Assembly (NCBI GenBank): GCA_913052465.1
Contig: CAJXEN010000002.1
Location: forward strand, 1-39,048
Origin: an uncultured Oceanospirillaceae bacterium
Lineage (GTDB): Bacteria > Pseudomonadota > Gammaproteobacteria > Pseudomonadales > Balneatricaceae
Direction of reading: 5' to 3'
Length of the DNA: 39,048 nt
Shown here in pieces: positions 7,953-25,477 of the stretch (position 1 is the first letter of the stretch; every line of letters starts with the position of its first letter). The position numbers and the translations under genes are program-made. A model generated the notes under the pieces. It made no database searches, was not told the DNA's origin, and saw only the letters and a program-made list of their open reading frames with translations.

Positions 7953-9605
7953 TTACATATTGGGGTAGTTTGGGCCACCAGCACCTTCTGGTACTACCCA
8001 AGTGATATTTTGACTTGGGTCTTTAATATCACAGGTTTTGCAATGTACACAGTTTTGGCCGTTTATTTGGAAGGTTTTTTCACCCTTTTCGTTCTCTAAA
8101 ACCTCGTAAACTCCAGCCGGGCAATACCTTTGTGCTGGTTCGTCCCACATGCTCAAATTAATACCTAAGGGCAGGCTTGAATCTTTTAAAGTAAGATGGC
8201 ACGGTTGATTTTCTTCATGGTTGGTGCCAGAAATAAATACTGATGACAACTTATCAAAACTAATTAACCCATCAGGTTTAGGGTACTCAATTTTAGGCAT
8301 CTGTGCTGCAGGTTTAAGCTGAGCATGGTCAGGAATATTGTCTTTTAAGCTAACGGGCAATTTGCCACCAAAAATGTTTTGGTCAACCCAGTTGAAAGCA
8401 CCACCTAGCCACATGCCAAACTTATGCATTGCCGCACCAAAGTTACGTGCTTTATAAAGTTCTTCATGTAACCAAGACTGCTTAAATTTTTGGCCATAAG
8501 CTAATAAGTCTTGTTTACCTTCATCGCCATTAGTCAGCGCTTCAAATAATGTTTCAGCGGCTAACATGCCAGACTTCATAGCAGTATGACTACCTTTAAT
8601 CTTGGCAAAGTTCATAGTGCCAGCATCACACCCGATTAACAAAGCACCAGGCAAGCTCATTTTAGGCAAAGCAAAAAGACCACCTTTTTCCACTGCACGA
8701 GCACCGTAAGAAACCCTAGAACCTCCTTCTAAATGCTGCTTAAGCACTGGATGATGCTTGAGGCGCTGAAACTCATCAAACGGGCTTAAATGGGGATTGT
8801 CGTAGCTTAAGTCAATAATAAGGCCAACGGTGACCTGGTTGTTATCTCCGTGATAAAGGAAAAAACCACCATTAGCCCCTTTGGTTAGTGGCCAACCAGA
8901 TCCATGAACCACTAAACCCGGCTGGTGTTTAGCTGGATCAATATCCCACAGTTCTTTAATGCCAATGCCATAGTGTTGGCTTGTAGTGCCTGCATCAAGG
9001 TTAAACTTTTCGATCAGTTGTTTACCTAGGTGGCCACGACAGCCTTCAGAGAAAACAGTATATTTTGCGTGTAACTCCATGCCTTGCATGTAGCTGTCTT
9101 TTTGCTCACCCGCTTCACTTACACCCATATCACCTGTGGCAATACCTTTAACACTGCCATCTTCGTGGTAGAGTATTTCAGACGCAGCAAAACCTGGAAA
9201 TATTTCGGCACCTAAGTTTTCAGCTTGTTCTGCCAACCAACGACACACATTGCCTAAGCTGACAATGTAGTTGCCTTCATTGTGCATTGGTTTTGGGATA
9301 GCAAAGTTAGGTAACGTAATGCCACCACTTGCACTGGTGAGAATGTGCATCTCGTCTTTGGCGACAGACGTCGTTACAGGGGCCCCCATAGATTGCCAAT
9401 CAGGAAAGAGTTCGTCTAGGGCAGTAGGTTCTAAAATAGCGCCAGACAATATATGTGCGCCCACTTCAGACCCTTTTTCAACCACACAAACAGTTAACTC
9501 TTGCTCTTTTTGTTGTGCTAGTTGTAGTAGTTTGCATGCGGTGGCTAGACCAGATGGGCCAGCACCAACGATAACAACATCAAATTCCATTGATTCACGT
9601 TCCAC
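7953..9605 (-). CDS. electron transfer flavoprotein-ubiquinone oxidoreductase
   Basis: Membrane-associated flavoprotein that passes electrons from ETF, reduced by acyl-CoA and other dehydrogenases, to ubiquinone. The 550-residue protein has the FAD motif GAGPSG at 14-19 and FSEGCRGHLGKQL. The C-terminal 4Fe-4S site is formed by the cysteine of RYCPAGVYE and the NCVHCKTC cluster, with the family ending GGPNYPNM. I keep the GTG start because AGAGGA lies about 8 bases before it; the in-frame ATG five codons later lacks a good site. The etfAB genes are not in the window. The leader contains a terminator-like hairpin at 9637-9667. Confidence 0.96.
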   Translation of the reverse strand: MERESMEFDVVIVGAGPSGLATACKLLQLAQQKEQELTVCVVEKGSEVGAHILSGAILEPTALDELFPDWQSMGAPVTTSVAKDEMHILTSASGGITLPNFAIPKPMHNEGNYIVSLGNVCRWLAEQAENLGAEIFPGFAASEILYHEDGSVKGIATGDMGVSEAGEQKDSYMQGMELHAKYTVFSEGCRGHLGKQLIEKFNLDAGTTSQHYGIGIKELWDIDPAKHQPGLVVHGSGWPLTKGANGGFFLYHGDNNQVTVGLIIDLSYDNPHLSPFDEFQRLKHHPVLKQHLEGGSRVSYGARAVEKGGLFALPKMSLPGALLIGCDAGTMNFAKIKGSHTAMKSGMLAAETLFEALTNGDEGKQDLLAYGQKFKQSWLHEELYKARNFGAAMHKFGMWLGGAFNWVDQNIFGGKLPVSLKDNIPDHAQLKPAAQMPKIEYPKPDGLISFDKLSSVFISGTNHEENQPCHLTLKDSSLPLGINLSMWDEPAQRYCPAGVYEVLENEKGEKTFQINGQNCVHCKTCDIKDPSQNITWVVPEGAGGPNYPNM

Positions 9606-9636
9606 TGCATATCCTCTTATTTAGTCTTTAGGGTGT

Positions 9637-9667
9637 AAAAAGCCACTTTAGCGTCTACAAAAGTGGC
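9637..9667 (-). terminator. terminator-like hairpin in the ETF-QO leader
   Basis: On the minus strand GCCACTTT, a 10-base loop and AAAGTGGC form a perfect 8-bp stem followed at once by five Ts (AAAAA at 9637-9641 on plus). It lies 32 bases before the ETF-QO start codon and on its sense strand. It could be an attenuator in the leader, or could stop antisense read-through from hpf. Confidence 0.6.
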
Positions 9668-9815
9668 CTACTGTTCATATACCGACTTATATTGGCTCTT
9701 CTTATACAGAGTTTCAATCAATACCGTATAGTCTCAGGGCTTAATCGCTGAAAATGTCCACTTTTCCCTAATGTTTGTTAAACTATTGGCCCCTATACTA
9801 AGCAAAGCCGCTCTA

Positions 9816-10262
9816 ATGCATATAGAAATCACCAGCACCTCCACTCAGAAACAGGTGCAAGATGAGTTACGCCAATTGAACGCAGGCGACCGCATACATT
9901 GCATTGATGTTGGACAGTTTTTGGTGTGTAAAGATTTGTTGGAGACCTGGCGCTGGAGTAACGTGCTATTGTTAATGATAGATGATCAGAAGCAGGTATT
10001 AAAACAGTTTAAATACAAACCTCCAGCCCATGAAGAAGTGCCAAGAGAGCGTTTGCTTAAGGATCAAGAGCAAGTTGTGCACGCGCTAGAGAAGGTATTC
10101 GCTCATTGCCATAAAGTGGGCTTGCAGGTGGTGTCTTTTAGTGATGGTTTGGTGGTGGTACCAAAGGATCTAGCTGAAGATCCTATGGCATTATGTTCGG
10201 CAGCGGCGTTAGGCATTAATGATTATGAAACATACTCCACTTTTGCTGAACATCTAGACTAG
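9816..10262 (+). CDS. hypothetical protein
   Basis: I do not recognise this 148-residue protein (start MHIEITSTS). It has no signal peptide or membrane segment. The N-terminal half reads as a small alpha/beta domain (LNAGDRIHCIDVGQFLVCKD, then VLLLMID), a charged helix follows (about 80-105), and the end is acidic. The frame is open from another ATG at 9771, adding 15 residues, but neither start has a clear ribosome-binding site; a TATACT -10-like box at 9794-9799 lies between them, so I prefer 9816. It runs towards hpf with a 30-base gap. Codon use resembles its neighbours, so it is probably a real native gene. Confidence 0.6.
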   Translation: MHIEITSTSTQKQVQDELRQLNAGDRIHCIDVGQFLVCKDLLETWRWSNVLLLMIDDQKQVLKQFKYKPPAHEEVPRERLLKDQEQVVHALEKVFAHCHKVGLQVVSFSDGLVVVPKDLAEDPMALCSAAALGINDYETYSTFAEHLD

Positions 10263-10292: not shown

Positions 10293-10643
10293 TTAGGCCA
10301 CTTCCTCATCCGGCTCCTCTGGAGGTACTCTCATACCCTTATCAATACCTTTACGGATTTGTGTTTTAGATTTCACTTTTTGTAACTGGGTTTCTATCTT
10401 TGAACTCAGCGAATCTATGGCACTAAACATATTATCGCCAGTGGCTTTGGCAAATATTTCTTGGCCAGTATCTAGGTGAAGGGTGGCTTCAGCAAGGTCT
10501 TGGTTACCTTCTTTGTCCATCGTGACTTGGATGTTAGTAATATGATCGAAGTGGCTTTCATTTTTCTGCAGCTTGGCCATAATACGTTCTTTTATGGCAT
10601 CGGTAGCTTTGGTGTCGTGACGAGCAGTAATGTTCATTTGCAT
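10293..10643 (-). CDS. hpf: ribosome hibernation promoting factor, short form
   Basis: S30AE-domain protein that binds the 30S decoding region in stationary phase and promotes ribosome dimer formation. The 116-residue protein starts MQMNITARHDTKATDAIKER and contains EATLHLDTGQEIFAKA and the DNMFSAIDSL-KIETQLQK pair typical of HPF. There is no C-terminal dimerisation domain, so it is the short form. GAAGGA lies upstream of the ATG, and a TATACT -10 box lies at 10675-10680. It is isolated here, not in the rpoN cluster where hpf is often found. The last 14 residues are acidic (PPEEPDEEVA). Confidence 0.92.
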   Translation of the reverse strand: MQMNITARHDTKATDAIKERIMAKLQKNESHFDHITNIQVTMDKEGNQDLAEATLHLDTGQEIFAKATGDNMFSAIDSLSSKIETQLQKVKSKTQIRKGIDKGMRVPPEEPDEEVA

Positions 10644-10706: not shown

Positions 10707-10729
10707 GTTGGTTGGTTGGTTGGTTGGTT
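10707..10729. repeat. GTTG tetranucleotide repeat, 5 copies plus GTT
   Basis: Five exact tandem GTTG units followed by GTT (23 bases) sit between hpf and ubiF, about 64 bases upstream of the hpf start and just beyond its -35 position. Short tetranucleotide tracts can change length by slipped-strand mispairing. Confidence 0.9.
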
Positions 10730-10899: not shown

Positions 10900-12072
10900 G
10901 TGAAAAGTGATTACGACATTGTTATTTGTGGTGGTGGCATGATTGGTGCTGCATTGGCAACACGACTTGCTCCACACGGATTCTCCATCGCACTAGTAGA
11001 GGCACAAGCCCCTGCTGCTTATGATTTGAGCCAACGCTTTGATTTAAAAGTTTGCGCGTTAAGTCCTAAAAGCGCAGAGGTTATGCAGCAATCTAAAGCC
11101 TGGAGTATTCTTCAAGAAATGCGCCTGTGTCCATACAAGCGTATGCGCGTATGGGAAATGGCAGTGTTTGGAGACTTAACCTTTGATGCTAGCCAAGTTG
11201 GCGTACCAGAACTTGGGCATATCGTTGAAAATAGGTTAGTACAATTAAGCCTTTGGCAGGCTTTGGAGGACAGCGAAAACGTTGACCTAATCTGTCCTGC
11301 TTCTCCACAACAGTTCCACCACGAAGGCTCTACCACCACTATTGACCTGGATACAGGACAAAGTCTATCAGCTCGATTAGTTGTTGGTGCTGACGGTGCT
11401 CAATCTAAGGTGAGGCAGGGTTTTGGCGTTGGGGTTAATCGTGGTCAATATCAGCAAGCTTGCTTAGTTGCTTCAGTGAATACGCAACTGGGCCAGCAAG
11501 ATATTACGTGGCAACGTTTTGTAAGTACTGGCCCACAAGCCTTTTTACCACTGCTTGGGCAGCATGGCTCTGTAGTTTGGTACCACCAAGCTGATCAAGC
11601 AAGGGCCTTGTGTAGCTTATCAAATGAGGACTTGGCGGCTAAAATTATGGCGCAATTCCCACCCCAGCTTGGCCAAATTGAAGTTATAGACAAGGCTTCT
11701 TTTGGTCTACAAAAACAGCACACCCAAAGTTATTGTAAACAGGGTATGGTTTTGATTGGTGATGCAGCCCATGTTATCAACCCATTAGCAGGACAGGGTG
11801 TTAATTTAGGGTTTCAAGATGTTAACTGTTTAGCAAAGGTGCTAACTGATGCTTATAATAATGGCCAAGACTGGTCAGCTACACAGGTTTTAAGACGCTA
11901 TGAAAAGCAGCGTAAATTAGCCAACAGCCTCATGCTCCACAGCATGGATGCATTTCACCATGGTTTCAGCCAAACTAACAGCAAGACTAAATGGCTACGA
12001 AATTTAGCGCTCGCATCTGCTAACCTCCCCGTTATTAAGAAACGAGTGGTTCGATATGCCATGGGGATGTGA
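10900..12072 (+). CDS. ubiF: 3-demethoxyubiquinol 3-hydroxylase (UbiF)
   Basis: FAD-dependent aromatic hydroxylase of the UbiH/UbiF/VisC family, expected to add the C6 hydroxyl late in ubiquinone synthesis. The GGGMIG FAD motif is at 11-16, the DG motif in VVGADGAQSKVR, and the GD motif in LIGDAAHVINPLAGQGVNLG. UbiF rather than UbiH is supported by segments I recognise from E. coli UbiF: MR-CPYKRMRVWE, GHIVENRLVQLSLWQALE, TWQRF-GPQAFLPL, and the C-terminal LRNLALA...KKR-VRYAMGM. The length (390) is also the same. The start is GTG with AAAGG 9 bases upstream. It is apparently transcribed alone. Confidence 0.88.
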   Translation: MKSDYDIVICGGGMIGAALATRLAPHGFSIALVEAQAPAAYDLSQRFDLKVCALSPKSAEVMQQSKAWSILQEMRLCPYKRMRVWEMAVFGDLTFDASQVGVPELGHIVENRLVQLSLWQALEDSENVDLICPASPQQFHHEGSTTTIDLDTGQSLSARLVVGADGAQSKVRQGFGVGVNRGQYQQACLVASVNTQLGQQDITWQRFVSTGPQAFLPLLGQHGSVVWYHQADQARALCSLSNEDLAAKIMAQFPPQLGQIEVIDKASFGLQKQHTQSYCKQGMVLIGDAAHVINPLAGQGVNLGFQDVNCLAKVLTDAYNNGQDWSATQVLRRYEKQRKLANSLMLHSMDAFHHGFSQTNSKTKWLRNLALASANLPVIKKRVVRYAMGM

Positions 12073-12290: not shown

Positions 12291-12319
12291 GCCACAATCG
12301 GCGTCTCACTGATTGTGGC
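12291..12319 (+). promoter_or_regulatory. hairpin just upstream of the M16 peptidase
   Basis: GCCACAATC (12291-12299) and GATTGTGGC (12311-12319) form a perfect 9-bp stem with an 11-base loop, followed by TTTCGTATTTATT. It ends 26 bases before the ATG. A TATATA box at about 12284-12289 would put the transcript start inside the stem. It may be an mRNA 5' structure, an operator or a weak terminator. The rest of the 12073-12290 gap holds no gene that I can see, only a TTTGGA/TCCAAA inverted pair at 12163-12184. Confidence 0.45.
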
Positions 12320-25125: not shown

Positions 25126-25156
25126 AGGCCACTAACCGCAATCGATTGAGTGGCCT
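25126..25156 (-). terminator. terminator after the SCP2 gene
   Basis: AGGCCACT (25126-25133) and AGTGGCCT (25149-25156) form a perfect 8-bp stem around a 15-base loop. On the minus strand TTTGTTTCTT follows, so it should stop the SCP2 transcript just after its stop codon. Confidence 0.72.
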
Positions 25157-25162
25157 GTGAAA

Positions 25163-25477
25163 TTAACCCATTTTGAATAATTGGCTTAACCGTGTACCCA
25201 ACATAACATCGCCTTCAGCCTGCAAACGACCACCCATAAATGCTGCCATACCATCTAATTCACCTGACACAATTTCTGAAAGTGTTTCTGAGTCCATAGA
25301 CATCGTAATTTCAGGGTCATCATGGTTGCCTAGGTTAGCATCGCAGTTTGCATCATTAATGGTTACGTAAAAATCATCATCATCAGAAATGCAAAATTGG
25401 AATGTTGCTTGTAAGCCTTCAGCTTCATCAGCGACGAATGCAGACTGCATTTGTGCCATTATTTCTGCTACTGCCAT
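25163..25477 (-). CDS. SCP2 sterol-carrier-like domain protein
   Basis: The 104-residue protein is a stand-alone SCP2 domain, which folds around a hydrophobic pocket for lipids or acyl-CoA. The pattern is typical: ATFQFCISD, DDDDFYVTINDANCDA, then ITMSMDSETLSEIVSGELDGMAAFMGGRLQAEGDVMLGTRLSQLF. It lacks the N- and C-terminal parts of UbiJ and has no signal peptide, so it is cytoplasmic. AGGA precedes the ATG. Its promoter carries a PsrA-like fatty-acid operator, supporting a role in fatty-acid metabolism (inference). It is divergent from sohB. Confidence 0.9.
   Translation of the reverse strand: MAVAEIMAQMQSAFVADEAEGLQATFQFCISDDDDFYVTINDANCDANLGNHDDPEITMSMDSETLSEIVSGELDGMAAFMGGRLQAEGDVMLGTRLSQLFKMG

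Follow-up and report, generated by a model that had tools for sequence, protein, structure and literature searches.

The window analysed here, the whole stretch of 39,048 nucleotides, comes from an ASP10-02a-type Oceanospirillaceae MAG and was compared across 15 genomes of the genus. The locus of interest comprises a leftward-reading gene for ETF-QO, a divergently oriented gene of no recognised family, and hpf, arranged as follows:

7953–9605, minus strand: ETF-QO gene, 550 amino acids, GTG start (Pfam Fer4_ETF_QO, 6e-49; ETFQO_UQ-bd, 1e-39)
9612–9618, minus strand: Shine-Dalgarno-like AAGAGGA ahead of the GTG, from its sequence and genus conservation
9816–10262, plus strand: unrecognised gene, 148 amino acids from ATG 9816, divergent from ETF-QO, conserved throughout the genus
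10293–10643, minus strand: hpf, ribosome hibernation promoting factor (TIGR00741), convergent with the unrecognised gene

In 14 of the 15 genus genomes these genes can be followed in the order hpf, unrecognised gene, ETF-QO, and the exception, G005, still has an hpf-like sequence. Assignment of the ETF-QO start to the GTG is supported by the conservation across the genus of a GTG (ATG in two genomes) following an AAGAGG-like sequence. The product of the unrecognised gene matches no family in Pfam or NCBIfam, its relatives elsewhere in the family share 26–35% identity with it, and those relatives that come from named genomes are mostly Oceanospirillaceae MAGs, including ASP10-02a. Its true start is probably the ATG at 9816; an ATG at 9771 was considered and set aside because several relatives show in-frame stops ahead of ATG 9816. 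On the far side of hpf, between it and the gene at 10900, there is a tandem repeat of five GGTT units (10710–10729); its length is reduced in G004, it is interrupted in G001 and G013, and it may be a variable tract ahead of hpf.

The leader of ETF-QO contains a set of closely packed elements, all of which are read in the sense of the gene:

9712–9717, minus strand: predicted -35 box TTGAAA of ETF-QO, from a TTGNAN that keeps constant spacing to the -10 box across the genus
9689–9694, minus strand: predicted -10 box CAATAT after a 17-nt spacer, from genus conservation
9668–9684, minus strand: conserved leader start CGGTATATGAACAGTAG, adjoining the stem
9642–9667, minus strand: stem-loop GCCACTTT-N10-AAAGTGGC, with an 8-bp stem, -10.9 to -13.6 kcal/mol, in seven of ten close relatives
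9637–9641, minus strand: U-tract UUUUU, 3' of the stem

On the minus strand, positions 9667 to 9642 read GCCACTTT-TGTAGACGCT-AAAGTGGC and are followed by TTTTT at 9641–9637, such that 9667–9660 pair perfectly with 9649–9642 over 8 bp, including four G-C pairs, around a loop of 10 nt. An earlier, sequence-only reading had described a perfect 8-bp stem and five Ts on the ETF-QO sense strand, and had both the position and the sequence right; it placed them 32 bases before the start codon, whereas 31 bases separate the last T from the GTG at 9605. Folded alone, the hairpin reaches -13.6 kcal/mol with two further outer pairs, and none of 200 dinucleotide shuffles was as good (z = -3.4). The stem has the form of that of an intrinsic terminator, in that it contains G and C, reaches the usual minimum length of 5–8 bp, closes a short loop and immediately precedes the tract. 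The tract itself is five Us followed by ACA, where an intrinsic terminator would have about 7–8 U-rich nucleotides directly after the stem; across the relatives the U-tracts are short, interrupted in most, and weaker than the terminators that trail hpf in G012 and G014.

We estimated how often such a structure would arise by chance in the 39-kb window using a strict scan for a perfect 8-bp stem with at least three G or C, a loop of 3–12, and at least five Ts in the next six bases. The scan returned four matches over both strands, corresponding to three places, one of which is counted twice since it matches on both strands; shuffled versions of the window (n = 40) yielded a mean of 0.15. A laxer, energy-based scan gives dozens of sites, the majority of them within genes, and the hairpin is thus not exceptional by stability alone. 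It is absent from the output of the promoter and terminator scan because that scan permits loops of 3–8 only.

Hairpins also occur at several other positions in the window. Between a gene for an FAD-monooxygenase-like protein and an M16 peptidase gene there is a strong plus-strand hairpin (12291–12319, -16.1 kcal/mol) with a TTTCGTAT tail; it overlaps the TTG listed as the peptidase start (12313), so the M16 peptidase gene probably starts beyond that codon. A minus-strand ORF of 104 amino acids at 25163–25477, whose product we take to resemble a small sterol-carrier-type protein, is followed at 25126–25156 by a symmetric hairpin, AGGCCACT...AGTGGCCT. Another symmetric hairpin, GCCGCACC-N4-GGTGCGGC, lies at 103–122, close to where the window begins on the left; it has T-runs on both strands and is typical of a two-way terminator.

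The position of the leader hairpin relative to transcription initiation was examined by comparison within the genus. Upstream of ETF-QO, the pattern TTGNAN-N17-CANNAT is present in 14 of 15 genus members, with AAGTCG after the boxes in most; the -10 box of G006, CAAACT, is a near match to CANNAT. We infer that the element at 9717–9689 is a sigma-70-like promoter of ETF-QO, which would put the transcription start near 9682 and the hairpin, about 20 bp from the end of the -10 box to the stem, at about +16 to +41 of the leader. A start between the hairpin and the GTG was also considered: the right arm contains the -10-like hexamer TAAAGT, and inspection by eye revealed no -35-like hexamer at a distance of 16–18 bases before it. 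The sequence-only reading had supposed that transcription might begin upstream of the hairpin and have to read through it, and this proposal gains support from the genus-wide promoter-like element together with the joint conservation of the stem and U-tract. In the five more distant members of the genus the promoter is kept, and the leader is longer (108–253 nt from -10 box to start codon) and is without this hairpin.

Conservation among the ten close relatives peaks in the -35 region, in ATGAACAGTA just before the stem, and at the gene start; it is lower in the loop and reaches its minimum between the U-tract and the ribosome site. The segment CGGTATATGAACAGTAG (9668–9684, minus strand) is conserved nearly as strongly as the promoter, including in species that have no hairpin, and a similar CGGCTAAAAACAAGT lies at the same place in the distant clade; it is possibly an operator or an RNA element. 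A separate observation concerns 9703–9715 (minus strand), where GAAAC overlaps the -35 box and is followed in G001 and G013 by TCTGTTTA; this resembles one half of a PsrA site, but the other half of such a site is unconserved.

The hairpin itself has a narrower distribution than the promoter. The ten close relatives compared, some of which are sisters, are G000, G004, G013, G001, G012, G010, G008, G007, G002 and G006; the first seven of these keep the stem, and it is missing from G007/G002 and from G006. In a tree of ETF-QO the stem-bearing G012/G010 and G008 fall outside the group formed by the seven others, with some deep forks open, and two losses of the stem within the clade would be the simplest reading. 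The hairpin is evidently dispensable, being missing from G007/G002, G006 and the five more distant members that have the same promoter. Among the stem-bearing species, changes in the arms lead mostly to G-U pairs, with one compensatory change (G008) and one mismatch (G013); the G-U replacements and the compensatory change fit an RNA read in the ETF-QO sense. Covariation beyond G-U is slight, and in a pair-shuffle control, itself unremarkable, the observed counts of pairs and pair types are reached by 135 and 275 of 500 shuffles, respectively; pair counts alone are weak evidence. Against column-shuffled alignments in which gap pattern and conservation class are preserved, RNAalifold scores the seven species at z = -4.1 (2 of 1000 shuffles as good) and all ten at z = -5.4 (1 of 1000). 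Read in the antisense direction, the alignment yields a structure in the seven species and none in the ten.

The stem does not travel alone. At least four of the first five bases past the stem are U in all seven stem-bearing species and in none of the three stemless ones (counts of 1, 1 and 3), an association with a Fisher p of 0.008 when kinship is ignored, the species representing about seven independent lineages. The second five bases past the stem are not U-rich. That stem and U-tract occur together and are lost together is the strongest indication that the two function as one, as a terminator or pause site requires.

What such a unit might do was weighed against several explanations. One is that the stem-loop has a structural role in the 5' UTR, protecting the mRNA and keeping the ribosome site free, and that it causes no termination, the Us being incidental. 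The short and mostly interrupted U-tracts agree with this, as does the fold of the full G000 leader, in which the ribosome site is left free beside the stem; but T-richness does not extend beyond the first five bases past the stem and is not seen in the stemless species, and the stem starts some 15 nt from the predicted 5' end, whereas classical protecting stems sit closer to the end than that. We consider a purely structural role rather unlikely, and a regulated attenuator, in which a metabolite, a protein or a ribosome on a leader ORF sets termination against read-through, is a more doubtful proposition still. The predicted layout of promoter, stem, U-tract and gene would suit an attenuator, a strongly conserved segment, GAACAGTAGG, lies ahead of the stem, and a short ORF that continues into the stem could begin with ATG AAC AGT AGG. 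The sole competing 5' fold is nevertheless weak (-2.6 to -4.9 kcal/mol) and depends on bases that lie ahead of the predicted start, while the stem forms with a probability of 0.97 or more in six species and is the minimum-energy fold in G008. A leader peptide from ATGAACAGTAGG... was rejected, as the ORFs vary in sequence and are of unrelated length and end from species to species, and the ATG is missing in G006. The sequence-only reading had invoked attenuation and proposed a comparison of related leaders for an alternative antiterminator pairing; the alignment of close relatives reveals no conserved, mutually exclusive pairing within the leader, a search of the window against Rfam gives no match at the gathering threshold, and attenuation proper, as a switch, is thus left unsupported. 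More specifically, we think it very improbable that the promoter, GAACAGTAGG and the hairpin with its U-tract constitute a regulatory RNA of about 45 nt or a protein-dependent attenuator that adjusts the entry of fatty-acid-derived electrons into the quinone pool of ASP10-02a.

Two further explanations place the function of the hairpin outside the ETF-QO transcript. It could stop leftward transcription that continues out of hpf and across the unrecognised gene in antisense. Its orientation is right for this, and in G000 and seven close relatives the short gap behind hpf shows no terminator. A hairpin with a U-tract does follow hpf directly in G010, G012 and G014, and a stand-in for a missing hpf terminator should be present only, and always, where there is no other; yet G010 and G012 retain the leader hairpin as well, and G002, G006 and G007 have neither. 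Moreover, lying downstream of the inferred ETF-QO promoter, it would also cut the ETF-QO mRNA and make a poor shield. The antisense stop, which the sequence-only reading had offered as its alternative, is therefore less likely, and we regard it as distinctly improbable. Least attractive is a DNA operator, with the dyad bound by a regulator that acts on ETF-QO or on the divergent gene. The region is shared by divergent promoters, and in P. aeruginosa PsrA activates the ETF-QO gene, PA2953 (PMC13104628), but the dyad does not match the PsrA motif G/CAAAC-N2-4-GTTTG/C, the substitutions in its arms lead mostly to G-U pairs and so suit RNA rather than DNA symmetry, and the association with the U-tract would be left without explanation. 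Nor does the dyad recur as a regulon or dispersed repeat. CCACTTT-N4-14-AAAGTGG has a single further match in the genome, which falls in apparent coding sequence, and GGCCACT-N3-18-AGTGGC is found at seven places, mostly inside apparent genes; this wider pattern had zero control matches in the genome itself, and across the other genomes of the genus the numbers of matches and controls lay closer together. An operator role thus seems very unlikely.

Because stem and U-tract are conserved together and absent together, we favor a terminator or pause site on ETF-QO's own transcript. With moderate confidence, we interpret the hairpin, which would lie in the 5' leader of the ETF-QO mRNA, as a weak element of the intrinsic-terminator (or pause) kind, one that is probably constitutive. 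RNA polymerase starting near 9682 from the conserved sigma-70-type promoter would transcribe stem and U-tract between about +16 and +46; some transcripts would stop at the U-tract as RNAs of about 45 nt and the remainder would continue to the GTG. The hairpin would then most likely act as a fixed, leaky reduction of ETF-QO expression and not as a signal-driven switch. Should termination indeed occur here, a gene connecting beta-oxidation with respiration in an uncultured marine group would come under RNA-level control as well; in the papers cited, the control described is at initiation only (PsrA in Pseudomonas). A constitutive weak terminator in this position would be ordinary.

Known systems provide points of comparison for this leaky leader terminator. 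In P. aeruginosa, ETF-QO (PA2953) is controlled at initiation by PsrA, a TetR-family protein (PMC13104628); the gene family is the same as here, but the control is exerted on initiation by a protein and not by an RNA element. The 5' terminators described in the text of PMC2965389, a survey of bacteria in which electron transfer proteins are not mentioned, have a mean stem of 7.0 bp and -16.5 kcal/mol, and the leader stem is near these in length and stability. It is close to the premature intrinsic terminators, such as the rimP-leader, described there, which likewise have a short conserved stem and a U-stretch upstream of a gene with no larger conserved sensing element, although the ETF-QO hairpin is confined to part of one genus, has a weaker U-tract, and does not have the GGGc...gCCC signature. 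Attenuation in the amiE leader of Pseudomonas aeruginosa is described as known in the main text of PMC8297930, a 3'-end map that does not mention PA2953 in that text. Whereas no antitermination element was found in the ETF-QO leader and its stop is predicted from sequence, the amiE case resembles it in placing a stop within the leader of a transcript, and does so in a related gammaproteobacterium.
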